From Methylotenera sp. (lineage in GTDB: Bacteria > Pseudomonadota > Gammaproteobacteria > Burkholderiales > Methylophilaceae): a stretch of 41,780 nucleotides of DNA. The position numbers were made by a program, and so were the translations under genes. The first letter of the stretch is position 1. Each line of letters begins with the position of its first letter. The stretch is taken from the NCBI GenBank assembly GCA_030652995.1, contig JAUSAG010000048.1, positions 1 through 41,780 on the forward strand, read 5' to 3'. The notes under the pieces are model-generated. The model was not told where the DNA came from, made no database searches, and saw nothing but the letters and a program-made list of their open reading frames with translations. Positions 210-11,926 of the stretch are shown piece after piece.

Positions 210-246
210 GATCATGCTACGCAGCGTAAGCTGCCGTAGCATGATC
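210..246. repeat. Perfect 12-bp inverted repeat at the 3' end of the transposase gene
   Basis: GATCATGCTACG at 210-221 is mirrored by CGTAGCATGATC at 235-246. The 13-base loop itself contains CAGC/GCTG, so the stem can extend. The arms code for the transposase C-terminus and include its stop codon. There is no U-tract on the minus strand, so this is not a classical terminator. It may fold at the mRNA 3' end, or delimit the start of the guide RNA. Confidence 0.7.
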
Positions 247-1251
247 ATGGCGGAATGTTGTACCTTTGGCCAGCAGCGCCCAGATGACCCTAGCATTCTT
301 GTTTGCCAAAGCAACCGCCGCCACGTTCTTGTTACGCCGTGCCATGAGCTTGCATAGCCAACTCTCTGGTGCCGCCTTGTGCTCGGCAAAACGGATGACT
401 GCCCGCGCACCGTGAATCAGCAAGGTTCTGAGGTAAGTATCACCACGCTTACTGATGCCAAGCAGATGCTGCTTGCCACCACTGGAGTGCTGCCGAGGTA
501 CCAGTCCCATCCACGCCGCCAACTGGCGACCATTTTGGAATTCTTTTACCTCTCCTACCGTCGCTACGATCGCGCTCGCGGTAATGGGGCCAATGCCAGG
601 AATCGTTTCCAGCTTGCGGCTGAGTTCACTTTCTTTGTGCCACAGCTTGATCTGTAGTTCCAGCTCGTCCACCTGACGATCCAGCACCTTCAGGTTCTCC
701 GTCAGTCGTTTCAACAGGTTGCGCATGGTGCCTGGCAAACCATTCTCACGATCTTCCAGAATGTCTGGTACACGTTTGGCAATCGCGTTGATACCTTGTG
801 GGATGACAATACCAAATTCGGAGAGCAAGCCTCGCATCTGGTTGGCCTGTGCGGTTCTCGCCTTCACAAACCCTTGTCTTGCGCGATGTACCGACAGCAT
901 TGCTTGCTGTTCGACATTCTTCATCGGTACGAAGCGCATATTGGGTCGGGTCACGGCTTCGCAAATGGCTTCTGCATCTGCCATGTCGTTCTTATTGGTC
1001 TTCACATACGGCTTAACGAATTGCGGTGCCATAAGTTTCACGGTATGTCCGTACTCGCCTAGCTTCCTTGCCCAGTGATGCGCACTGCCGCAGGCTTCCA
1101 TGCCAATCAGGCAGGGTTCCAAATTGCTGAAGAACTTTGCCATCTCGCTCCGGCGCAGTTGCTTACGCAGAACCGCTTTGCCATGTGTATCTACGCCGTG
1201 AATCTGAAACATTTCCTTTGCCAAATCAATGCCAATTGTTGTAATCTTCAT
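217..1251 (-). CDS. IS110-family transposase (DEDD recombinase)
   Basis: This 344-residue protein is a full-length RNA-guided DEDD recombinase of the IS110 family. The N-terminal RuvC-like domain shows GIDLAK (Asp near residue 9), MEACGS (Glu) and DMADAEAI (two Asp). The C-terminal Transposase_20 domain has the helix-hairpin-helix-like IPGIGPITASAI and the QHSSGGK segment with the serine needed by this family. The ATG at 1249-1251 directly follows the right-hand non-coding end. No frameshift or stop interrupts it, so the copy could be active. The last codons lie inside a strong hairpin (210-246). Family assignment is secure; the IS1111 subgroup is inferred from the layout of the non-coding ends. 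Confidence 0.95.
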   Translation of the reverse strand: MKITTIGIDLAKEMFQIHGVDTHGKAVLRKQLRRSEMAKFFSNLEPCLIGMEACGSAHHWARKLGEYGHTVKLMAPQFVKPYVKTNKNDMADAEAICEAVTRPNMRFVPMKNVEQQAMLSVHRARQGFVKARTAQANQMRGLLSEFGIVIPQGINAIAKRVPDILEDRENGLPGTMRNLLKRLTENLKVLDRQVDELELQIKLWHKESELSRKLETIPGIGPITASAIVATVGEVKEFQNGRQLAAWMGLVPRQHSSGGKQHLLGISKRGDTYLRTLLIHGARAVIRFAEHKAAPESWLCKLMARRNKNVAAVALANKNARVIWALLAKGTTFRHDHATAAYAA

Positions 1252-1575
1252 TTGGACGCCTCTTTCTAGTTAAGTGGTTTGTAGAAACTCTACTTTGGCA
1301 CGTTGATGCCGTTTTAGGAAGTGGGCGTCCATTCCATTATTAGGACTTGGAATGGTAACGCCGCACAGTTTGGTGGATTTTTTGTGCACGTTTTATGGAC
1401 AATAGTCACTCTATTGACAGAAAATTTGTACAAAAAAGGCGCAAAATTGCAAGTTAACATTCAAGTAGATGATAAATCACCTAATGGAGAATCTGGGTTT
1501 AAGCTATCGGCTTCTATCTGAAAAATTATAAATGCTTGTTGTTTCTCGCCTTTTTGTAGCTGATAATCTCACCTT
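1252..1575. other. Intergenic: right end of the IS element, then the leader of the Fur/Zur-type gene
   Basis: The first 90 bases belong to the insertion sequence and contain the pair GGACGCC (1254-1260) / GGCGTCC (1324-1330). A second inverted repeat, CCATTCCA (1329-1336) / TGGAATGG (1348-1355), overlaps the element boundary. From about 1360 to 1575 I see AT-rich sequence that should hold the promoter of the regulator gene. A 66-codon ORF here shows no recognisable features and is not called. An AAATGC half-site near 1529 only weakly resembles the palindromes found downstream, so autoregulation is not demonstrated. Confidence 0.5.
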
Positions 1576-1992
1576 ATGAATACTGAAGAACTTATTACAA
1601 GGGCGGGATTAAGACCGACCCGGGCGCGTATTGTAGTGCTTGACGTACTTGCAAAAGCTAGTAGCGCCATGAGCCACGCTGAAATTCTGGCTCAAATGTC
1701 CCATCAAAAAGAATTTGATAGAGTCACTATTTATCGAGTGTTGGATTGGCTGACTGAACATCACTTAATTCATAAAATTTCAGGTGATAATCGTGCCTGG
1801 AAGTTTCAGCTATCTCAATATGAGCGAGAAGACGAATCTTTGCATCAGCATGCACATTTGCAATGCAGTGCATGCGGCAAAGTGATTTGCATACACGAAC
1901 TTGAACCGCACTTTCCCAGCAAAATCCTTGCTAAATACCACGTTAAATCTATTGATATTCATATCAAAGGTTTATGCCCTGATTGTATTTAA
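1576..1992 (+). CDS. zur: Fur-family transcriptional repressor, probably Zur (zinc uptake regulator)
   Basis: This 138-residue protein has Fur-family architecture: an N-terminal winged helix (RPTRARIVVLDVL and FDRVTIYRVLDWL, recognition helix around residues 48-60) and a C-terminal dimerisation domain. The structural zinc site is formed by C97-x2-C100 and C134-x2-C137. HQHAH at residues 90-94 supplies regulatory metal ligands. A Fur-family protein beside a ZIP transporter, two COG0523 GTPases and a TonB receptor points to zinc sensing rather than iron. Expected action is repression with zinc bound, relieved by starvation. Two palindromes that I take as its operators lie just downstream, before the ZIP gene. 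Fur-family membership is firm; zinc specificity is inferred from context. Confidence 0.85.
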   Translation: MNTEELITRAGLRPTRARIVVLDVLAKASSAMSHAEILAQMSHQKEFDRVTIYRVLDWLTEHHLIHKISGDNRAWKFQLSQYEREDESLHQHAHLQCSACGKVICIHELEPHFPSKILAKYHVKSIDIHIKGLCPDCI

Positions 1993-2017
1993 CTTACCCT
2001 AAGCTACCTTCTAGATA

Positions 2018-2050
2018 AAATATAAATGCAATAATGTTGCATTTATATTT
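2018..2050. promoter_or_regulatory. Putative Zur box 1: perfect 14-bp inverted repeat
   Basis: AAATATAAATGCAA (2018-2031) and TTGCATTTATATTT (2037-2050) are exact inverse complements separated by TAATG. The core TGCAATAATGTTGCA matches the two other palindromes in the window (2062-2082 and about 10663-10683). It lies about 120 bases before the ZIP start codon and just after the regulator gene, so as RNA it could also serve as a rho-independent-like end of that gene. Operator function is inferred from repetition and context. Confidence 0.65.
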
Positions 2051-2061
2051 CCACACCCTTA

Positions 2062-2082
2062 AAATGCAACACTGTTGCTTTT
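2062..2082. promoter_or_regulatory. Putative Zur box 2
   Basis: GCAAC-ACT-GTTGC is a perfect palindrome at 2066-2078, embedded in AAAT and TTTT flanks that extend the symmetry. It shares 12 to 13 of the central 15 bases with the sites at 2018-2050 and near 10673. Spacing of about 38 bases to the centre of box 1 would allow two dimers to bind before the ZIP operon. Confidence 0.65.
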
Positions 2083-2169
2083 TATGTAATCCAGCCTTAA
2101 TCAACGCATCATAACGATACTTTATTAACCTATCCAATCAATGCGTACCTGTATAACAAGCTCAATAAC

Positions 2170-2913
2170 ATGACACTCATACAAATTATTCTTGCCACGC
2201 TCATTGGAGGTATTTTTTCAGTATTACTAGCCGCTACCATTGCGCTTACATTCTTAGCAAAATTCGCTAACCGCATGGTGGCATTTTCTGTAGGCGTGCT
2301 ACTTGGTTTTGCTTTAACAGATATTTTTCCAGAAGCAGTAAATCTTGGTCTAGATATAACCGAAGCAGGCTGGGTATTGGTGGCAGGCATCATGCTCTTT
2401 TTTTTACTAGAAAAGCTAGCTTTATGGCGACATGACCACGCAACCAGTCTAGGTAAAAGTCAGTACAAACCTCAGGTTGCAATGGTAGTCATCGGCGATG
2501 GTATGCATAATTTTGTAGATGGGGTTTTGCTGGCTGCCGCATTTTTAACCGACTGGAAGTTAGGTTGGGCTACCGCTATCGCTATTACCGCACATGAAAT
2601 ACCTCAAGAGATATCAGATTTTATGGTGTTGTTAAATGCTGGCGTTTCAAAAACAAAAGCACTATTACTTAATGCTATTTCAGGTGCAGCCATGACTTTG
2701 GGCGGTTTAATCGGCTGGTTAAGCTTAACTAATGCAAATACAGCAATTCCTTATGTATTAACTTTGGCCGCATCTAGTTTTATCTACATAGCCGTGGCTG
2801 ATTTAGTCCCTGAGCTTCACCATCACCGCAAACCTAAAGATATGTTAATACAACTAGGTTTAATTGCACTAGGGCTGTGTGTAGTAGCGCTTGCTAAATT
2901 AATACAACATTAA
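2170..2913 (+). CDS. ZIP-family zinc/divalent metal transporter
   Basis: A 247-residue inner-membrane protein with about eight hydrophobic segments, of normal length for bacterial ZIP proteins such as ZupT. The TM4 signature is GDGMHNFVDG (H113, N114, D117) and the TM5 signature is AHEIPQE (H142, E143, E147); together these form the binuclear metal site. A short hydrophilic loop around residues 86-100 (WRHDHATS) has histidines that may help capture metal. The expected role is uptake of Zn2+ into the cytoplasm. It is first in a run of same-strand genes reaching to 9596, and the two palindromes before it suggest Zur control. The ATG at 2170 is the first in frame after those sites. Family is certain; the exact cation range is not visible. 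Confidence 0.9.
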   Translation: MTLIQIILATLIGGIFSVLLAATIALTFLAKFANRMVAFSVGVLLGFALTDIFPEAVNLGLDITEAGWVLVAGIMLFFLLEKLALWRHDHATSLGKSQYKPQVAMVVIGDGMHNFVDGVLLAAAFLTDWKLGWATAIAITAHEIPQEISDFMVLLNAGVSKTKALLLNAISGAAMTLGGLIGWLSLTNANTAIPYVLTLAASSFIYIAVADLVPELHHHRKPKDMLIQLGLIALGLCVVALAKLIQH

Positions 2914-2940
2914 AAAATTTTGGGCTCATAAAGGATCAAC

Positions 2941-4208
2941 ATGATAAAAAATACAGATACAAAAATAAAAAAACTCCCCGTCACTGTGCTTTCTGGCTTT
3001 TTAGGTGCTGGCAAAACTCTATCAGATCAACTAGACAAGTTAATTGTCGCTAGACCAGACAAGATAATTGTCGCTCAATAGGCAAGCGTGTCGCGGTGAT
3101 CGTTAACGACATGTCAGAAGTCAACATCGACGCACAACTCGTGCGTGAGGGAGGCGCTGAACTATCACGTCAAGAGGAAAAGTTAGTAGAAATGAGCAAC
3201 GGTTGCATATGCTGCACCTTGCGTGAAGACTTATTATTGGAAATCACCCGTTTGGCCAAAGAAAATCGTTTTGATTACCTGCTAATAGAAACCACAGGAA
3301 TTTCAGAACCTTTACCTATTGCCGAAACTTTTACATTTGCTGATGAAGATGGCACCTCGCTCGCAGATGTTGCACAATTAGACACCATGGTAACAGTTGT
3401 AGATAGCTACAATTTCCTCAAAGACTACAGTTCACAAGATATGCTAACTGCACGTGGCGAATCACTCGGTGAAGAAGATGAACGTACCGTGGTGGATTTG
3501 CTGGTTGACCAAATTGAGTTCTGTGACGTGCTGGTTCTTAACAAAACCGACTTGATGACGCCGAGCGAAATCGCTCGACTTGAAGGCATCCTCAAAACAT
3601 TTAACCCACGTGCTCAGATCATCCATAGCAGTTTTGGGAAAGTACCGCTAAATCGCATCATGAATACAGGTTTATTCGATTTTGACCAAGCGGCAGATGC
3701 TCCCGGATGGTTACAAGAGTTACGTGGTGAACATGTTCCTGAAACAGAGGAATATGGAATTAGTAGCTTTGTGTATCGAGCGCGTAAACCGTTTCACCCA
3801 CAACGCTTATGGCAATGGTTCAATACCGAATGGTCTGGTGTGGTACGCTCTAAAGGACGTTACTGGATAGCCTCACGCCCTGATTTCTGCGCCACATGGT
3901 CACAAGCAGGCGCTGTGACTCGCACAGAGCTTGCAGGTATGTGGTGGGCAACCACTCCGCATGAGCTATGGCCTGAAGATGATGAAAGTTTCCAGCATAT
4001 TAAATCACGCTGGCAAGAACCTTACGGAGATAGACAACAAGAATTGGTCATCATTGGTATGCAGATGGATAAAACAACACTGACCGCCAGCTTTGATGCA
4101 TGTTTACTCACAGACGCAGAGTTAGCTCTTGGGATGGAGGCTTGGAAAACAATGGATGACCCATTCCCCAAATGGCCGAATGTTGAGCCTGCTCAAGAAA
4201 TCGCATAA
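2941..4208 (+). pseudogene. COG0523 (CobW/ZigA-like) GTPase gene disrupted after the P-loop
   Basis: Reading starts at ATG 2941 with a typical COG0523 N-terminus (LPVTVLSGFLGAGKT, complete Walker A). It then runs into 62 bases (3019-3080) where the family has about 33 bases coding TLLNH-type residues, and stops at TAG 3079-3081. The rest is intact in another frame (GKRVAVIVNDMSEVN onward). It carries the GCICC zinc motif, the ETTGISEP switch, the NKTD guanine-specificity motif and a full CobW C-terminal domain with WIASRP, ending at 4208. The largest remaining ORF (GTG 3096 or ATG 3111) would make a protein without a P-loop, unable to bind GTP normally. Its codon use and length look unchanged, so the break appears recent; a sequencing error cannot explain a 29-base net gain. 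The intact family would be a zinc-delivery GTPase. A second complete paralogue lies at 10910-11926. Confidence 0.75.
3033..3075 (+). repeat. Two 19-bp direct repeats, 24-bp period, inside the broken COG0523 gene
   Basis: AGACAAGTTAATTGTCGCT at 3033-3051 recurs at 3057-3075 with one change (T to A). Each copy contains an imperfect dyad, GACAA-N5-TTGTC. They sit exactly in the extra sequence that interrupts the GTPase. A plain 24-base duplication would preserve frame, so an additional event is needed. Tandem sites with this look resemble transposase-binding repeats at ends of TnsB/TniA-type elements; that comparison is from memory and is only a suggestion. Confidence 0.7.
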
Positions 4209-4234
4209 AATAAATCGTTGATAGGAATTACTTC

Positions 4235-6217
4235 ATGAAACAAAAAATTATTTCAATTGCTGTGTCACTTCTCTTTGCACCCTTAGTGTATGCAGAGACA
4301 AAAAATAACGCCATTCAATTAGACAGTGTCGCTGTGATCGGGAAACATGAGTTACTTAATATTGACAGAAGCCTTGCAGGTTCGGTCGATGTCATCACGC
4401 GCGATGAGCTGGAATACGAACACGTGACTGATACCCTAGAACTGTATACCAAGGCACCTGGCGTGGTGCTGTCACGCTACAACCAAGGGATCATCAACAC
4501 TGATATATCCATTCGTGGTTTTGCCGGTGATGGCAGTACACCGCATGCTAAATTATTAGTGGATGGTATTCCATCAAATTTACACAATGGTTACAATGAA
4601 ATGGACTACCTATTTCCTACTAACATTCAAAGCATTCAAGTTTTTAAAGGCACAAGTGACCCTGCTTCAGGCGTATTTGCTACCGCTGGCAACTATAAAG
4701 TGGAGACTCGCAAAGATAATGGTAAGCAGCTACAGGCCAGCTTTGGTAGTTTTGATACAAAAGAATTACAAGGCTACTTTGGTGACAAACAGGGTGACTT
4801 AACCCAGAACTATGCACTAGGCTACCGCGCTGGAAAAGGCTATCGTGATCATACTGACATCGAAAAAATTGCTTTATCAGCGCGCTGGCAATATGACTTT
4901 GAAAAATCAAGCCTGGCGCTAAGTACAAAATATGGAAAATATAATGCATTTGAAGCGCCAGGTTACTTATCGAAAGATGAGGCACGTCGCAATCCAAGAC
5001 GTTCAGCTGACTTCGCTAACCAAGATGATGGTGAAAAAGAATTTAAACATATCAGTCTACATTACGACTACTTTTTTAATGAAGACACAGATTTAAGCCT
5101 CAAAGCATACAGTCAAGGTTTTGAACGAGAGAGAAATGTTCGATTTTCAGCTTCGCAATTATTAGTTGAGAACCGTTTTGATGACCAGAATATGCAAGGC
5201 ATAATCGCCAAGTTAAACTGGCGAATTAACCAAAACTGGACGTTACAAACAGGCTATGATATAGAAAAGCAAAAAGTCCTAGAACAGCGCTTCAGAGGAA
5301 CACAAACCCGGCGTGATTTCGACTTTGATTTTGAAACCCAAGGTGCTTTTGTACAACTTGAAAACACACCCACCAACTGGTTACGCTGGAACGTCGCGCT
5401 TAGAGCTGACCGACTAGATGGCGATGTAAATCGCGCATTTGTTGTGAATGGTGCAGCAACTAACCGTCGCATGTTTGATTTTGGTACGATCATGCAACCT
5501 AAGCTGAATGTATTTGCTAATATCACAGATACGCAAACCGTATTTGCTAACTATGGTCGCTCATTCCAGCATCCATTTGGAGGTGATGCTTTCACGACTG
5601 GTAATAAAAATGCGCGCGATGTTGCAATTAACGACGGTTGGGAGCTAGGGTTAAAAAGCAATTGGGCTAAACTCAACACACGCGTTTCATATTGGCAACA
5701 AGATGCACAAGATGAGTTTGTAGTCATCGACGGTACTGGTCAAAACGTAGGAGAAACTGAGCGCAAAGGATTGGATGCGAGTTTTGATATTACATTCAAT
5801 GAACAATGGTCTATTTGGGGGAATGTCTCTAAAGTATTTACCGAAATCACAAATGCATCAACTGCAAATCAGAACTTTACAGGCAACGACTTACGAGGAA
5901 TTCCAGACCATACTGCATCTGTCGGATTGCAATATACATACAGCGATAAATTGGTGGCTCGCGTTCACGTCGATAGACAAGGCGCCTACTATCTAAATGA
6001 AGCTAATATTGGTGGAAAGTATGGCGCATATACCCTCACTCATGCCAATGTCGATTACAAAACAAGTTGGGGAACAGTAAGTTTGCAAGCCAATAATATC
6101 TTTAATAAGTTTTACGAATATGTATTCGACCAAAATTTGATCAGTTCGGTCGTAGATTCGATTCACTCGCCTGGTGCTGGCCGCAACTTTACATTATCAG
6201 CAACAATGGACTTTTAG
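4235..6217 (+). CDS. TonB-dependent outer-membrane receptor, probably for zinc or a zinc complex
   Basis: A 660-residue protein with a signal peptide ending in VYA (about residue 20), a plug domain (about 25-155, with IDRSLAGSVDVITRDEL, SIRGF, LLVDGIP and IQSIQVFKGTSDPASGVFATAG) and a 22-strand type barrel ending in aromatic phenylalanine (TLSATMDF), as needed for BAM assembly. No N-terminal signalling extension is present, so it is not a surface-signalling transducer. It follows the GTPase gene by 26 bases and precedes the ABC ATPase by 9, so it is probably co-transcribed. The expected role is energised uptake across the outer membrane, substrate unknown. Zinc is inferred from the ZIP, COG0523 and Zur neighbours; iron-siderophore transport is the main alternative. 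Confidence 0.9.
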   Translation: MKQKIISIAVSLLFAPLVYAETKNNAIQLDSVAVIGKHELLNIDRSLAGSVDVITRDELEYEHVTDTLELYTKAPGVVLSRYNQGIINTDISIRGFAGDGSTPHAKLLVDGIPSNLHNGYNEMDYLFPTNIQSIQVFKGTSDPASGVFATAGNYKVETRKDNGKQLQASFGSFDTKELQGYFGDKQGDLTQNYALGYRAGKGYRDHTDIEKIALSARWQYDFEKSSLALSTKYGKYNAFEAPGYLSKDEARRNPRRSADFANQDDGEKEFKHISLHYDYFFNEDTDLSLKAYSQGFERERNVRFSASQLLVENRFDDQNMQGIIAKLNWRINQNWTLQTGYDIEKQKVLEQRFRGTQTRRDFDFDFETQGAFVQLENTPTNWLRWNVALRADRLDGDVNRAFVVNGAATNRRMFDFGTIMQPKLNVFANITDTQTVFANYGRSFQHPFGGDAFTTGNKNARDVAINDGWELGLKSNWAKLNTRVSYWQQDAQDEFVVIDGTGQNVGETERKGLDASFDITFNEQWSIWGNVSKVFTEITNASTANQNFTGNDLRGIPDHTASVGLQYTYSDKLVARVHVDRQGAYYLNEANIGGKYGAYTLTHANVDYKTSWGTVSLQANNIFNKFYEYVFDQNLISSVVDSIHSPGAGRNFTLSATMDF

Positions 6218-6226
6218 ACGCCCGAA

Positions 6227-6940
6227 ATGACCCTATTATCAATCAAGCTTTTCTCCTGTGCGTTCGAAGGTAAAAAGGTACTGCAATCACTTAACCTGAC
6301 CGTAGAAAAAGGTCAGGTTTTGTCTATTTTAGGTAGTAATGGCGCGGGTAAATCGACTTTACTTAAATGTATCCTTGGGCTTACTGACAAAAACGCACAA
6401 CTAGATGGTGATATTGAGATTTCAGGACACAGCGTATTTCAGCAGCCTTTGTTAGCTAGGGAACAACTAGCTTATGTACCTGAGCAACCTGCGGTTTATG
6501 GCCATTTGTCGGCCCTTGAAAATATACGTTATTTTCTAAGTCTATCGAGCACGTCTCAGGTATCGGCTCCTATCGAAGCCTATTTAAAACAGGTAGGACT
6601 GTTACAAGAAGCCTGGGATCGTCCGTGTAGTGAATATTCTAAGGGCATGAAACAAAAAGTGATGTTGGCGCTAGCTTTGGCAAAACAGGCCAAACTACTA
6701 CTGATGGACGAACCCAACTCTGGCTTAGATCCACAGGCGACAGATGAACTCAATCAAATTATTTTGCAATGCAAAAACAATGGTATGGGTGTGCTGGTCG
6801 TAACTCATGATGTATTGTCAGCCATGTCATTTTCAGACCAGTTGTATATGTTATCCAATGCACAACTGCAGCCCATATCAATTGATCAATCAACACTAAC
6901 GCTAGATAACCTCAAAAAAATGTATCAAGGTCAAGCATGA
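6227..6940 (+). CDS. ABC transporter ATP-binding protein (ABC-2 type)
   Basis: A 237-residue ATPase with all motifs: Walker A GSNGAGKST (residues 36-44), Q-loop YVPEQPAVYG (83-92), a signature-like YSKGMKQ (137-143), Walker B LLLMDEP (157-163), D-loop SGLDP and H-loop THD (H194). The YSKGMKQ form of the signature is that of the ABC-2/CcmA-type exporters and NosF-like proteins rather than of ZnuC-type importers. It starts 9 bases after the receptor gene, and its stop overlaps the next ATG by four bases (ATGA, 6937-6940), indicating translational coupling with the two permeases. It should energise them at the inner membrane. Confidence 0.92.
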   Translation: MTLLSIKLFSCAFEGKKVLQSLNLTVEKGQVLSILGSNGAGKSTLLKCILGLTDKNAQLDGDIEISGHSVFQQPLLAREQLAYVPEQPAVYGHLSALENIRYFLSLSSTSQVSAPIEAYLKQVGLLQEAWDRPCSEYSKGMKQKVMLALALAKQAKLLLMDEPNSGLDPQATDELNQIILQCKNNGMGVLVVTHDVLSAMSFSDQLYMLSNAQLQPISIDQSTLTLDNLKKMYQGQA

Positions 6941-8346
6941 CACTAACACCAGTTGTGATGATAATGCGCAACGAGTGGCAGCGCCTATGGCATGCCCGTA
7001 TCCCTGTATTATTACTAGTGGTGCTAGTGGTGCTGTGGACGATTGCGGCTTTTACTGCGCACCACCACTGGCAAGACCATGCACAAAATGTAGCGCAAGT
7101 CACCAAACAAAGCCAACAAGATTGGCAATCTCAACCGAACCGCCATCCGCATCGCGTATCACATTACGGCGATTTCGTTGTCAAGCCCTTGCATCCACTT
7201 AGCGTGATAGAACCTGGTATCATTGATCAATCTGGGCATTTGGTCTATCTGGAAGCGCATCGTTTAAACAGTGCCAATTTCAACCCTGCGACCGAGGCTA
7301 CCAGTTTGGGGCGTTTTCCGCTGATAACCCCAGCCATGATTGTGCAATGGTGGATGCCGTTATTTCTAATTATGATAGGCTATGCCAGCATCACAAGCGA
7401 AAAAGTGGCAGGCACTCTGGCTTATATGCGTGGCAACGGTAGCCCAGCTTGGCAAATTGCGGCAGGTAAATGGTTAGCTTTATTTTTACCATTGGCTTTT
7501 TTATTGTTATTACAAGCGCTACTTACCGCAGCGTGGATTTGGGGCACCGACCAAGCACTGCTGAGGCTATCTACCATGTGGTTGGGGCAAATGTTATATA
7601 TCGCTAGCTGGTGTGTACTTGTCATTTTGGTTTCATGGCACAGTCGTCAACTACACAGCGCATTGTTGACATTGCTATTGTGTTGGGTCTGCGTTTGCAT
7701 TATTTTCCCCAAGGGTTTAGCCAACTTAGCACAAATGAATCACCCCACCCAGCCACGCACTGAGGCCGAATACCATGCGGAACTGAAACTCAAAGAAATT
7801 GGTGATAGCCATAACCCAGACGACCCGCACTTTGCAACCTTTAAAGCAAGCCTGCTTAACCAATATGGCGTAACCCGTACTGAAGACCTACCTGTAAATT
7901 ACAACGGATTGCTCATGCAAGAAGCCGAGCGTTTGACTACCCAAGTATATCGCGAGCAACATGCACTGCATAACAAGCAACTTAATAAACAAAATGGTGC
8001 CATTCGCCAATGGTTATGGCTAACACCTGCATTAGCATTACAATATATACAAATGGCAAGTAGTGGTAATGATTTAGCACATCACCAAGCTTTTATTGAA
8101 CAATCTGAAAATAGACGTTATCAACTGATTCAGTACCTTAATCTGATACACACCCAAAAGGTAGATCAGCATGACGATAAAAATACCCGTGTTTCGGCAG
8201 AATTTTGGCGAAATGCTCCACGCCCACCTGTCACCTTAGCTACTTTAATAGTTAGTCGAGACTCATTAGTCACATCCTTGGCTGTATTGCTAGGATGGAT
8301 TCTGCTGCCAGTATTCTTACTTTACCGAGTATGGCATCGCACATGA
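6937..8346 (+). CDS. ABC-2 type permease with large extracytoplasmic domain (DUF3526-like), first of a pair
   Basis: A 469-residue membrane protein. Residues about 15-37 form the first membrane helix (IPVLLLVVLVVLWTIAAF), followed by a roughly 100-residue extracytoplasmic stretch that starts with a histidine cluster (AHHHWQDH). Then come about five helices (residues 130-270), a second soluble domain of about 150 residues with the HHQAFIEQSENRRYQ and RPP segments typical of DUF3526 proteins, and a final helix (about 440-465). NosY/ABC-2 permeases have six helices, so this is an expanded version. It is coupled by ATGA overlaps to genes on both sides. Substrate is unknown; histidine-rich loops facing the periplasm fit a metal role but do not prove it. 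Confidence 0.8.
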   Translation: MTLTPVVMIMRNEWQRLWHARIPVLLLVVLVVLWTIAAFTAHHHWQDHAQNVAQVTKQSQQDWQSQPNRHPHRVSHYGDFVVKPLHPLSVIEPGIIDQSGHLVYLEAHRLNSANFNPATEATSLGRFPLITPAMIVQWWMPLFLIMIGYASITSEKVAGTLAYMRGNGSPAWQIAAGKWLALFLPLAFLLLLQALLTAAWIWGTDQALLRLSTMWLGQMLYIASWCVLVILVSWHSRQLHSALLTLLLCWVCVCIIFPKGLANLAQMNHPTQPRTEAEYHAELKLKEIGDSHNPDDPHFATFKASLLNQYGVTRTEDLPVNYNGLLMQEAERLTTQVYREQHALHNKQLNKQNGAIRQWLWLTPALALQYIQMASSGNDLAHHQAFIEQSENRRYQLIQYLNLIHTQKVDQHDDKNTRVSAEFWRNAPRPPVTLATLIVSRDSLVTSLAVLLGWILLPVFLLYRVWHRT

Positions 8347-9596
8347 AGCATGAACTAATCTTATTACTGAAACAACGTAGCGTATTACTTTTGTTGTTGA
8401 TTAGCGTAGCGCTCACCAGTTTAAGTTTATTGAACGGTTGGCAAAATATCAGTCACATGCGAGCGCAAATCAGCCATGCGCAATTAGAGGAACAGCGCCA
8501 AAGGGAACGTCAATTGGTTGCATATGCAGACCAAGGCAAAATCGATGCTGGTGAAGTTGGCTATTACGTGTTTCATTATGTCTATCAACATCCATCAGAA
8601 TGGAGCTTTATTGCACTTGGTAATCGACTTGTCACGCCCTATGTGCAACGCATTCGATTACTAGGCTTACAAGGTCAACTTTACGATGGTGAATCTCATC
8701 ATCCTGAATATGTCATGCTTGGTAGCTTTGATTACGCTTTTTGGTTAGTTTTTTTCTCTCCCTTGCTATGTATCGCACTGATGCATGATCTCAAAGCAAG
8801 TGAATTTGAGGCACAACGGCTAAAACTCTTAGCTAGCCTAGTTAAAAATCCCTTTATTTTTTGGGCTAGGCGTATATTCATTCGTTGGGTCTTGATTTTT
8901 ATGACTTTAATCATTCCACTGGCAATATTTTCCATCTTAAAAAATCTGACATTACCTTCACTAATAGTTATCATCACCACCACTTGTTTATATACACTAT
9001 TTTGGACTATGGTATGCATAATGGTCAGTTTACGCGCCCGTGCGCTGAACGCCAGCCTAAATGCCATACTACTCGCAAGTGCTTGGCTTTTGGTCTGTGT
9101 AATACTTCCCAATCTATCCCAACTCTGGCTAAACGATCGCTATCCGGCGCAAGATGGTAGCCAAATTGCCTTACAACACCGCCAGCTGGTACATGGCGCA
9201 TGGGATCTAGAAAAAACAGATACACTGAATCCGTTTTATGAAATTTATCCTCAATGGCAGCATACTCCACCGGTCACGGGGCGCTTCCACTGGAAATGGT
9301 ATTATGCCTTTCAACACATGGCAGATGTTCGTCTTACTTCAAACGTCATGGCACGCGAACATGCTTTGCTACAACGCCATCAAGCAACAATAAGTCTGGG
9401 GTTAATTCTACCAAGCATTTGGGTGCAACGCAGTCTTGAGGATATAGCGCAAAGCAATATCATACACTTACTGAATCATCGCCAGCAGATTACAGAATTT
9501 CATAACCGTCTGCGGCACTTCCTGTATCCGTATTTGTTTGAAGAAAAAGCCTTAACATCTCAGGAGTTTGGTCATATGCCAGCTTTTGAACATTAA
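8343..9596 (+). CDS. ABC-2 type permease with large extracytoplasmic domain (DUF3526-like), second of a pair
   Basis: About 417 residues, built like its upstream partner: a first helix (VLLLLLISVALTSLSLL), a long extracytoplasmic segment, four to five central helices (about residues 130-270), a second soluble domain with LLQRHQATISLG and a C-terminal tail without a clear last helix. In-frame ATGs exist at 8295, 8331 and 8343. I chose 8343 because it forms an ATGA overlap with the preceding stop, the same junction as before the previous gene, and it leaves a normal N-terminus beginning MKHELILLLKQ. The two permeases probably form a heterodimer driven by the ATPase at 6227. The gene ends 25 bases before the convergent peptidase gene and closes the operon. 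Confidence 0.78.
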   Translation: MKHELILLLKQRSVLLLLLISVALTSLSLLNGWQNISHMRAQISHAQLEEQRQRERQLVAYADQGKIDAGEVGYYVFHYVYQHPSEWSFIALGNRLVTPYVQRIRLLGLQGQLYDGESHHPEYVMLGSFDYAFWLVFFSPLLCIALMHDLKASEFEAQRLKLLASLVKNPFIFWARRIFIRWVLIFMTLIIPLAIFSILKNLTLPSLIVIITTTCLYTLFWTMVCIMVSLRARALNASLNAILLASAWLLVCVILPNLSQLWLNDRYPAQDGSQIALQHRQLVHGAWDLEKTDTLNPFYEIYPQWQHTPPVTGRFHWKWYYAFQHMADVRLTSNVMAREHALLQRHQATISLGLILPSIWVQRSLEDIAQSNIIHLLNHRQQITEFHNRLRHFLYPYLFEEKALTSQEFGHMPAFEH

Positions 9597-9621: not shown

Positions 9622-10644
9622 TTAGTCACTTAAACCAATATCGGTTGTCGTTTCACCCTTTCGAATAGGTGGCGTTTCTTTTTGCATTAAAACTGTACCG
9701 GCTGAAGGTGATCGAAGTGTTGCAATTAAATTTCCAAAATAATCACTTACCCAGCCAATCTTTTGGTCTTTCTCTACATGCTCGCCCACCTTAATTTGCG
9801 GGTGAAATATTCCGGTTTCGGTACTTTGAACAGAAACTAATTTGCGATAAATTACCACATTTTCCATTGGATACTCAGAGCTCTCATGCATACCTAAATG
9901 GCTCATGGCATTCAAACAAGCTTGATATATCAAATTAACATCTAACTCCTCGCTTTGACCAAGATGTCCCACTTCCAATGTCAAGCCGGGCTTACCTCTA
10001 GTTTGGGCAGTATTAGGATAAGAAATAGCATTCTCAGGATCACGCGGCCGCTCATCATATAAAACGATATGTGGTATGCCTAGCGATTTTGCTAAGGCCA
10101 AAGTTTTTTTATCTAGTGATGCATTATTCATAACCGGAGAATATACATGTGGCAACAAAGTCTGATTCCAGCTACCAGAGTGAATATCAATAAGGTAATC
10201 TGTTTTGGCAATAATTTGATGCGTCATAAAAAATGCAATTTGCTCTGTTAACGTTCCATCTTTACGTCCTGGAAAGACTCTGTTAAGATTTTTCTCGTCT
10301 ACAGGACTTAGTGCTACCCTTCGTGCATGAAAACCCTCAAGATTGGCAAGATGCACTACAATTAAAGTCCCCCGCAATCTTTCTGGCTTTATTTCTTGCC
10401 TAAGTTTATGCAATGCAAAGATGGCTGGAAACTCATCTCCATGAATCCCAGCGGTTAACGTCAGAACTGGGCCAGGATATTGGCCATGAATCACTGTAAT
10501 GGGCATTGACGTACTTGCAACATCTTGCACCCATGAATGTTTACTTCCTGCTTTAATCTGATTGCCGATGAATGAGAACAGCACATCCGCATGGGTTGTT
10601 TGGATGAAACTTAGAAATAAAACAAGCAAAATATAATGCATCAT
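9622..10644 (-). CDS. Secreted succinylglutamate desuccinylase/aspartoacylase-family zinc hydrolase (M14-like)
   Basis: A 340-residue protein with an N-terminal signal peptide (hydrophobic core about 4-14, cut after HA at residue 19). The fold is recognisable from the zinc ligands H68 and E71 in GIHGDE and H155 in DIHSG, plus the general-base glutamate in LTLEVGH (about residue 226). The C-terminal 80 residues resemble the beta-barrel, biotinyl-like extension common in AstE/AspA-type proteins (VGEHVEKDQKIGWV). The protein probably hydrolyses an amide or peptide bond in the periplasm. It diverges from the second GTPase gene, and a palindrome identical in type to the ZIP-operon sites lies about 20 bases before its ATG, so zinc-dependent repression is likely. 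A zinc enzyme made under zinc shortage suggests work on a metal-binding ligand, which is inference. Confidence 0.85.
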   Translation of the reverse strand: MMHYILLVLFLSFIQTTHADVLFSFIGNQIKAGSKHSWVQDVASTSMPITVIHGQYPGPVLTLTAGIHGDEFPAIFALHKLRQEIKPERLRGTLIVVHLANLEGFHARRVALSPVDEKNLNRVFPGRKDGTLTEQIAFFMTHQIIAKTDYLIDIHSGSWNQTLLPHVYSPVMNNASLDKKTLALAKSLGIPHIVLYDERPRDPENAISYPNTAQTRGKPGLTLEVGHLGQSEELDVNLIYQACLNAMSHLGMHESSEYPMENVVIYRKLVSVQSTETGIFHPQIKVGEHVEKDQKIGWVSDYFGNLIATLRSPSAGTVLMQKETPPIRKGETTTDIGLSD

Positions 10645-10662
10645 TAATAATCGACTATGATA

Positions 10663-10683
10663 ATATGCAACATTGTTGCGTAA
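10663..10683. promoter_or_regulatory. Putative Zur box 3 before the secreted hydrolase
   Basis: TGCAACATTGTTGC forms a perfect GCAAC-ATT-GTTGC palindrome centred near 10673 (position good to about one base). It differs from box 2 by a single central base and from box 1 by two. It sits roughly 20-25 bases upstream of the hydrolase ATG, overlapping the likely core promoter on the minus strand, and about 235 bases upstream of the divergent GTPase gene. Regulation of the hydrolase is therefore more likely than of the GTPase. Confidence 0.65.
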
Positions 10684-10909: not shown

Positions 10910-11926
10910 ATGGACAATCGCATCCCAGTTACTTTGCTTACCGGCTTTTTAGGTAGCGGCAAAACTACATTGCTCAATAAATTACTTAGCCACTCTAAAA
11001 TGCAAGATTCGGCAGTTATTATCAACGAGCTTGGTGAAGCTGGACTTGACCACATTCTTGCCACACAAGTTGAAAGTGAACACATCGCAGACAATACAGT
11101 ACTTTTGAACTCTGGTTGCATTTGTTGCAGTTTGAAAAATGAACTGGCAGACACGATGCGAGATTTGTTTTTTAAGCGGGCACTGCAAGCTATTCCCGAG
11201 TTTAATCGCTTAGTGATTGAAACCACTGGCATGGCTGACCCCGGCCCGATACTGGCTAATTTGATGAACGAGCCTGTGATTGAATCTACCTACAGACTTG
11301 ACGCGGTGGTGGTCACAATTGATAGCGTTTATGGCTTGGCGCAAATTGCAAACAATCCAGAAGCCTTAAAACAAGCGGCTGTAGCGGATATACTACTACT
11401 GACTAAAACTGATTTAGCTAGCGCAGAACAAGTCGAAGAGTTAGAACAAAAACTTACCAGTATCAACCCTGGCGCTACACAGCATAAAATTATGAATGGT
11501 GAATTAGACCCTGCTTTTATCATTGATGTTGGGCTATTTGGCCTTACCACCAAACAGGCTGAACCACAACGCTGGCTGCGCGCCCCAAGCCAAGCAAAAT
11601 TACCTAAAGGCACTTTACCGCAGAAAGTACATGACGATGAAATCGTAAGCTTCACTGTCACCATGCCAAACCCTTTGTATTGGCGCGATCTCAAACCCGT
11701 GATTCTAAAGTTATGCCAAACGCACGGTGAAAAACTATTACGCTTAAAAGGCATTATTCACGCTGAAGATCAACCGTCACCACTCGCCATTCATGCGGTA
11801 CATTTCACGCCTTATCCACCTACGCTACTAGAAGGCTGGGAAGAGGCCGAACCTAGCTCGCGTATTGTGATTATTGGTAAAGGACTGGATGAACTGGAAA
11901 TTAGAAAAATTTTAATGCAGGTTTAA
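10910..11926 (+). CDS. COG0523 (CobW/YjiA-type) metal-chaperone GTPase, intact paralogue
   Basis: A 338-residue G3E-family GTPase. Walker A is GFLGSGKTT (residues 12-20), the switch I/II segments include INELGEAGLD and ETTGMADP, the zinc-binding motif is GCICC (C70, C72, C73) and the guanine-specificity motif is TKTD. The C-terminal CobW domain spans about 225-335 with the usual short IHAVH/IIGKGLD core. Members load zinc or other metals into client proteins at the expense of GTP. This copy is shorter and more YjiA/CobW-like than the broken ZigA-like copy at 2941-4208, so they are distinct subtypes, not a recent duplication. CAGGTTTAAAACCTG (11918-11932) spans its stop codon as a 15-base palindrome and may help end the transcript. 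Confidence 0.92.
   Translation: MDNRIPVTLLTGFLGSGKTTLLNKLLSHSKMQDSAVIINELGEAGLDHILATQVESEHIADNTVLLNSGCICCSLKNELADTMRDLFFKRALQAIPEFNRLVIETTGMADPGPILANLMNEPVIESTYRLDAVVVTIDSVYGLAQIANNPEALKQAAVADILLLTKTDLASAEQVEELEQKLTSINPGATQHKIMNGELDPAFIIDVGLFGLTTKQAEPQRWLRAPSQAKLPKGTLPQKVHDDEIVSFTVTMPNPLYWRDLKPVILKLCQTHGEKLLRLKGIIHAEDQPSPLAIHAVHFTPYPPTLLEGWEEAEPSSRIVIIGKGLDELEIRKILMQV

Follow-up and report, generated by a model that had tools for sequence, protein, structure and literature searches.

How zinc is passed on from a TonB-dependent outer-membrane receptor to the inner membrane when a bacterium lacks ZnuB is the question raised by a 41,780-nucleotide stretch of DNA from a methanol-consuming Methylotenera sp. 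(hereafter the window), which is contig 47 of a 2.66-Mb genome that is 99.96% complete and is closest, among named relatives, to Methylophilus and other Methylophilaceae. Here, six genes on one strand encode a ZIP-family importer, the COG0523 GTPase ZigA, a TonB-dependent receptor, an ATP-binding cassette (ABC) ATPase and two DUF3526 permeases, and an initial annotation made from the letters had described them as a candidate undescribed metal-acquisition operon with short gaps or overlaps. All six coding stretches are present, and the domains named there were recovered with Pfam (Zip; cobW with CobW_C; Plug with a TonB barrel; ABC_tran; ABC2_membrane_2 with DUF3526; and DUF3526 for the last gene). 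Two of the gene models needed correction: zigA is not intact, and permease 2 starts at 8343, where an ATGA overlap joins it to permease 1 and where most aligned homologues begin; the listed start at 8295 was rejected as too early, judged by homologue starts in the alignment. The spacing from the ZIP gene through the permeases is operon-like, with gaps of 27 bp (ZIP to the zigA ATG), 26 bp (zigA to receptor) and 9 bp (receptor to ATPase) and a 4-bp overlap of ATPase and permease 1, and a fur-family gene and two palindromes just upstream have to be considered together with the six genes first named. On balance, and with some reserve, we favor a Zur-type zinc-starvation operon that has acquired, after zigA, a four-gene cassette of receptor, ATPase and two DUF3526 permeases, with an ABC motor that would free zinc. 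That the operon has a role in zinc starvation is, from comparison, highly probable, and its first assignment to metal (zinc) acquisition is supported.

We searched for operators with a 15-mer core, TGCAACANTGTTGCA, which was cleaner than the long 21-mer; genome-wide matches to the latter were mostly noise beneath the two window sites. With at most one mismatch, the core occurs three times in the genome, each time in the window (2027, 2065 and 10666), where base composition predicts 0.49 sites, and with up to two mismatches there are 23 genome sites versus 4 for the reversed pattern. Site pairs 38 bp apart recur in 8 of 21 relative loci with an ABC of the cassette family (two of the eight being one genome); one more pair is spaced by 54 bp, and the rest have a single site or none at the cut used. 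Among zigA loci that lack the cassette, sites precede the zigA unit in 14 of 14, as a 38-bp pair in 12, and relatives also have a fur gene by zigA. In Cupriavidus metallidurans, a COG0523 operon is likewise preceded by two Zur boxes (PMC10882993). The statement that no ZnuABC importer is present holds for its permease, PF00950 (the ZnuB family) giving no match anywhere in the source genome; ZnuA and ZnuC were not searched. The same family was matched in 13 of 14 control genomes and was missing only from Caulobacter vibrioides, the sole control with DUF3526.

The architecture of the window is more than chance, because it recurs in relatives. Of 187 genomes in the family, 19 have a match to permease 2 (E <= 1e-20) and 22 have one to the receptor (E <= 1e-60); the strong matches (permease <1e-100, receptor <1e-200, thresholds chosen after the gap in scores was known) fall in an identical set of 16 genomes, mostly of one genus and hence not 16 independent cases, and receptor and permease adjoin by coordinates in all 16. 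zigA scored over its cut-off in 40 of the 187, including 15 of these 16, and in G080 it is split across two contigs. In 10 of the 14 cassette-less loci, zigA is followed directly by a second COG0523 gene (COG0523b), which comes after the cassette in the window and in L011. Two other cassette-less loci (L132 and L134) have next to zigA a gene for a protein of ~1000 residues, which at 74-95% identity comes after the cassette in L012, L013, and L016, and in a further two (L129 and L130) zigA has other neighbors. These neighbors indicate that receptor and ABC, often together with an AstE-like hydrolase gene, are a unit inserted behind zigA, and from comparison of the genomes receptor and ABC behave as one heritable cassette. 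In 12 of 21 loci, several of which were fetched twice, zigA and the receptor are separated by a DUF1826 gene, which is absent from this place in the window. In the Methylophilus operon of L017 (the same genome as L045), a second receptor-like gene (L017:2784-4892) stands right before the cassette receptor. The cassette is also present in Methylophilus methylotrophus DSM 46235 (L015).

Three genomes of one other genus (G056, G057, and G058) carry the ABC trio separately from zigA and with its own box, which lies 72 bp (G057) or ~100 bp (G058) upstream of the ATPase gene or near its start (G056). As the permease tree places G056/G057 and G058 apart from the window and from each other, three ABC lineages in the Methylophilaceae share one operator. 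A receptor gene lies directly behind the ABC in G058, and none is directly beside it in G056 or G057. The detached trio of G056 is followed by a sigma-70-family (ECF-like) gene, and frames that by eye resemble receptor pieces occur farther off on both sides (L048:1-3846 and L048:9285-11459).

Outside the Methylophilaceae, 8 of 368 genomes in the rest of the class have a match to permease 2 (E <= 1e-15) and 20 of 397 others in the phylum have one to permease 1 (E <= 1e-30), with G460 common to both searches, and the outside sample consists of all 27 distinct loci (447 kb). The receptor-ABC pairing, which the initial annotation had proposed to follow across genomes, is conserved here too: a TonB receptor stands beside the ABC in 26 of the 27 loci (the exception is L175), the opposite of an ABC that occurs mostly without a receptor. 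Receptors account for 30 of 133 genes within three genes of the permeases versus 2 of 118 at five or more genes. Both receptor counts were made with a model derived from 12 receptors, of which 7 come from these 27 loci; Pfam was used to check the 7, and the others were called by the model alone. The Zur core GTTATAnTATAAC (at most one mismatch) occurs 8 times in the 447 kb and 0 or 1 times in each of 10 Markov resamplings. Its sites lie 15-133 bp upstream of a receptor or ATPase gene in L059, L170, L171, L173 (two), and L174. In L061 a site lies 21 bp ahead of a small frame preceding the receptor, and L184, a locus with two COG0523-like genes as well, has one ~300 bp upstream of its fur gene. 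In L172, where receptor and ABC are divergent, GTTA-N5-TAAC lies within the 29 bp that separate them, and in L181, from the same taxonomic order as the window, TGCAACACTGTTGCG precedes the receptor by 250 bp. MerC and DUF1826 are neighbors in L061 and L168, MerC lying inside the cassette in the former and beside it in the latter. Among 72,556 plasmid records, 9 hold a relative of permease 1.

In a 42-row tree of permease 1, a branch with 100/99 support splits 27 rows, including the window and the Caulobacter protein P0245, from 15 others. Zinc signs were found in 17 of 22 tested rows on the window/Caulobacter side versus 3 of 15 on the other (p 0.0009), or 12 of 17 versus 3 of 15 with near-copies collapsed (p 0.006); labels were assigned with the loci already known, and the p values are descriptive only. 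Five protein-only rows (P0185, P0197, P0205, P0211, and P0232) were dropped from this comparison as they have no gene context, and the label of P0245 was taken from published work (PMC4176598). In that work on C. crescentus, Mazzon et al. (2014) found that a zur mutant expressed the TonB receptor gene znuK 41-fold more strongly and znuG, znuH, and znuI, for an ABC-2 ATPase and its two permeases, 29-, 38-, and 12-fold more strongly, with Zur control of znuK-znuGHI backed by lacZ fusions and gel shifts, and they reported that growth without zinc involves znuK and znuL (PMC4176598). A Zur-repressed TonB receptor with an ABC-2 system of the same family had thus been described already, and the word "undescribed" in the initial annotation has to be withdrawn. 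Zinc regulation accompanies the DUF3526 ABC in one large part of the tree, and in our sample the family, which is annotated only as DUF3526, accompanies outer-membrane receptors across the phylum. In the open-licence literature searched, we found no use of the name DUF3526, alone or with TonB or the Zur regulon.

The ABC had been described at the outset as an exporter or mechanical type and not a ZnuABC importer, which is supported. From comparison, the permeases have the fold of NosY; the match of permease 2 is the weaker (Foldseek E 0.28), and sequence identity to the NosDFY system is only 14-20%. A sequence search of the Protein Data Bank gave no match with permease 1 and a single weak match, to the ferric alcaligin receptor, with the receptor. 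In the reading that we favor, when zinc is scarce Zur would leave both boxes and the operon would be read, and zinc, as such or in a complex, would enter the periplasm through the receptor. The inner-membrane ABC, whose large DUF3526 parts presumably face the periplasm and contain invariant histidines, may then use ATP for a movement on its periplasmic side that strips, releases or hands over zinc, similar to the role proposed for NosDFY with copper, and the ZIP protein would move Zn2+ inward. That the ABC works mechanically on the periplasmic side instead of moving a solute is a tentative proposal, which could well be wrong. If such periplasmic metal release is true, the cassette would be a second NosY-type ABC that serves as a metal-handling motor.

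Two readings in which the ABC does move a solute have to be set beside this one, and both seem unlikely. It might export a zincophore that the receptor later retrieves with zinc, for which the many exporters in its fold class and the constancy of the receptor as its neighbor would speak; no biosynthesis gene was recognized in the cassette or as a constant neighbor in the Methylophilaceae loci, where some neighbors lack annotation and beyond which no search for such a gene was made, and pseudopaline leaves by an EamA-like exporter and MexAB-OprM and not by such an ABC (PMC10393844). Alternatively, it might import zinc or a zinc complex across the inner membrane, as the name ZnuGHI implies. The Caulobacter system has been termed a putative high-affinity uptake system (PMC4176598), and the missing ZnuB in both the source genome and the Caulobacter control fits such a role, but the cassette has no binding protein, its fold is NosY/ABCA-like, and the operon has its own ZIP gene, with two further places in the genome that match Zip. 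We give import about the same chance as zincophore export.

Several observations weigh against a zinc-releasing motor under Zur. The Foldseek matches also list PmtCD and lipid and small-molecule transporters of the ABCA and ABCG types, so that fold alone cannot settle function. The conserved histidines, with H70, H72, H76, H108, and H292 invariant in permease 1, are also present in family members without zinc signs, those of permease 2 are not enriched (2 of 22 invariant versus 52 of 433 residues), the receptor sequence contains no histidine-rich stretch, and none of the cassette genes encodes a NosD-like or NosL partner. The fur-family protein matched eight NCBIfam models (Fur, Zur, PerR, and Irr), all below their own cut-offs, with 34.5 bits against the 167 required by the Zur model NF008646, a comparison to be read with the proviso that other Zur types may lack models; the protein is accordingly presumed to be Zur, and the boxes are presumed Zur boxes, by gene context. 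No confirmation of the Methylophilaceae box motif was found in the literature, judged by titles among the matches listed, and Methylophilus loci with ~240 bp free before the receptor have no box of their own at the cut-off used. Among the 27 outside loci, the strict core GTTA-N5-TAAC (11 sites in the 447 kb) lies just upstream of the cassette only in L172, L173, and L174, and 17 of the 27 have no zinc sign by the tests used. On the permease tree the zinc label requires 11 changes, and 36 of 500 shuffled labelings need as few; zinc control would have been gained or lost many times, or the tests overlook boxes. Finally, the reading we favor comes from genes and sequence comparison, and in the source organism zigA itself is broken.

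The ABC might instead serve its receptor in a role unrelated to metal, such as assembly, upkeep or the clearing of toxic ligands. In favor of this are the weak clustering of the label, the generality of the receptor pairing and the lack of a zinc sign in 12 of the 15 rows that the tree splits from the window. Against it are the concentration of zinc signs on the window/Caulobacter side and the separate acquisition of the local box by different ABC lineages, and we think it somewhat less probable than either transport reading. A bolder view returns to metal release, namely that DUF3526 ABCs are NosY-type machines, widespread in the Pseudomonadota and coupled to TonB receptors, in which ATP powers the release of metal from incoming complexes in the periplasm, with ZnuGHI as a zinc branch recruited to Zur several times; as a generalization we hold it possible and rather doubtful.

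The zigA frame opens at ATG 2941 and includes the P-loop GFLGAGKT before a TAG stop at 3079-3081, and the open remnant is a later GTG frame (3096-4208) without the P-loop, so that P-loop and the rest of the GTPase are not in a single frame; the remnant alone still scores 614.2 bits with the ZigA model NF038288 (cut-off 600). At 3018-3080, ~34 native bases are swapped for ~63 others. The 75 bases at 3006-3080 are 97% identical to a stretch of contig 33 (G000 C33:57858-57933), with shorter copies at C6:60534 and C33:60220. The long frame beside the contig-33 copy has weak, below-cut-off matches to transposase domains, and we take it to be of the IS21 kind. The break may be an assembly fault.

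The Fur, ZIP, and COG0523b proteins of the window are 98.6, 93, and 90% identical to those of the cassette-less genome G129 versus 75% for ZigA, and the identities to a Methylophilus locus are 89% for ZigA, 84% for the receptor, and 75% for permease 1, a pattern that suggests block transfer. DNA similarity to G129 nevertheless continues through zigA to 4175 (83% on average over 1498-4175) and resumes from 10909. A decaying or hitch-hiking operon, with zigA, the AstE-like gene and everything between them imported from a donor like Methylophilus and no longer fully working, would account for these identities and the broken zigA. It is the least probable of the alternatives; the receptor and all three ABC genes are open, the intact second COG0523 gene may substitute for zigA, and the similarity to G129 extends through zigA.

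The features of the window are collected in the table. The AstE-like gene is probably in the same regulon and could encode a hydrolase that acts on a periplasmic metal-binding ligand; in G042 it is detached and has a box to itself (L102). Another AstE-like gene lies in the zigA cluster of G046 (L130). Further box-adjacent genes in relatives encode a TonB receptor (L094), MerC (L095), and a DksA paralogue (L093), and those without an evident zinc role encode major facilitator superfamily proteins or kinases (L092, L096, and L099), a PEP-CTERM protein (L100), and an outer-membrane efflux protein (L101). The MerC-domain membrane protein by a presumed Zur box was seen at L095:3096-3473 (Pfam) and, similar by eye, at L097:3770-4147. 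Directly upstream of the fur-zip operon, a 344-residue frame (217-1251, minus strand) resembles what we take to be an IS110-type transposase. Scans for promoters and terminators in the window gave no excess over shuffles, and an Rfam scan gave three transfer RNAs at the gathering threshold.

Table. Features of the zinc operon and its surroundings in the window
Feature	Position	Strand	Evidence or remark
fur-family regulator, presumed Zur	1576..1992	+	Pfam FUR 53 bits; Zur call from context
Palindromic operator 1, presumed Zur box, AAATGCAATAATGTTGCATTT	2024..2044		motif scan
Palindromic operator 2, presumed Zur box	2062..2082		motif scan; 38 bp from operator 1
ZIP-family zinc importer, ZupT-like	2170..2913	+	Pfam Zip 116.6 bits; NCBIfam ZupT 69.6, under the 252 cut-off
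zigA, COG0523 zinc metallochaperone GTPase, broken	2941..4208	+	NF038288; cobW + CobW_C
Stretch within zigA with a near-copy elsewhere	3006..3080		97% identity to G000 C33:57858-57933
TonB-dependent outer-membrane receptor	4235..6217	+	Pfam Plug + TonB_dep_Rec_b-barrel
ABC ATPase, ZnuG-like	6227..6940	+	Pfam ABC_tran; 40% identity to L172 counterpart
ABC permease 1, ZnuH-like	6937..8346	+	Pfam ABC2_membrane_2 + DUF3526
ABC permease 2, ZnuI-like	8343..9596	+	Pfam DUF3526
AstE/AspA-type hydrolase	9622..10644	-	Pfam AstE_AspA_cat; signal-peptide-like N-terminus by eye
Third presumed Zur box	10666..10680		between AstE-like gene and second COG0523 gene
Second COG0523 GTPase (COG0523b), intact	10910..11926	+	Pfam cobW + CobW_C

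Compared with known systems, the operon shares with ZnuABC and ZnuD the presumed job of zinc uptake under Zur, and it differs from ZnuABC in that the source genome has no ZnuB-family permease and the ABC belongs to another fold class. With the ZigA/COG0523 zinc operons of Acinetobacter, Burkholderia, and Cupriavidus it has in common a zigA gene under zinc-linked control; excerpts of the Burkholderia and Cupriavidus papers mention no comparable ABC. Zur-regulated COG0523 clusters were drawn by Haas (2009) with DUF1826 and an outer-membrane protein, and the words ABC and TonB are absent from the main text of that paper (PMC2770081). PA4063-PA4066 of Pseudomonas aeruginosa is a further ABC system, strongly expressed when zinc is scarce, with presumed binding proteins that lack the usual structure (PMC10393844). 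Unlike NosDFY(L), the copper machine of nitrous oxide reductase, the cassette is without a NosD-like partner and has two unlike permeases and a large DUF3526 insert.

The closest likeness is to ZnuK-ZnuGHI of Caulobacter (CC1517-CC1520), also a TonB receptor beside an ABC-2 ATPase and two DUF3526 permeases. L172 most likely represents znuK-znuGHI in a bacterium related to Caulobacter, and P0245 of C. vibrioides is most likely ZnuH: the L172 permease shares 88-91% identity with Caulobacter-named proteins, including P0245, and between the L172 box, ATTGTTACGGTATAACATC, and the znuG site as published, ATTGTTATGATATAACATC, 2 of 19 bases are different. Permease 1 of the window is 33% identical to P0245, and permease 2 and the ATPase are 36 and 40% identical to their L172 counterparts, whereas the receptor is unlike ZnuK, with two local pieces of 25-28% identity to the L172 receptor. 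Receptor and ABC are co-directional within the fur-ZIP-zigA operon of the window and divergent in L172, and the operators differ, TGCAACAnTGTTGCA in the window versus GTTA-N5-TAAC in Caulobacter. The ABC of the window is thus a relative of ZnuGHI that stands with another receptor. The cassette is real and zinc-linked, it is of the ZnuGHI kind, and its spread is wider than the one studied case implies.

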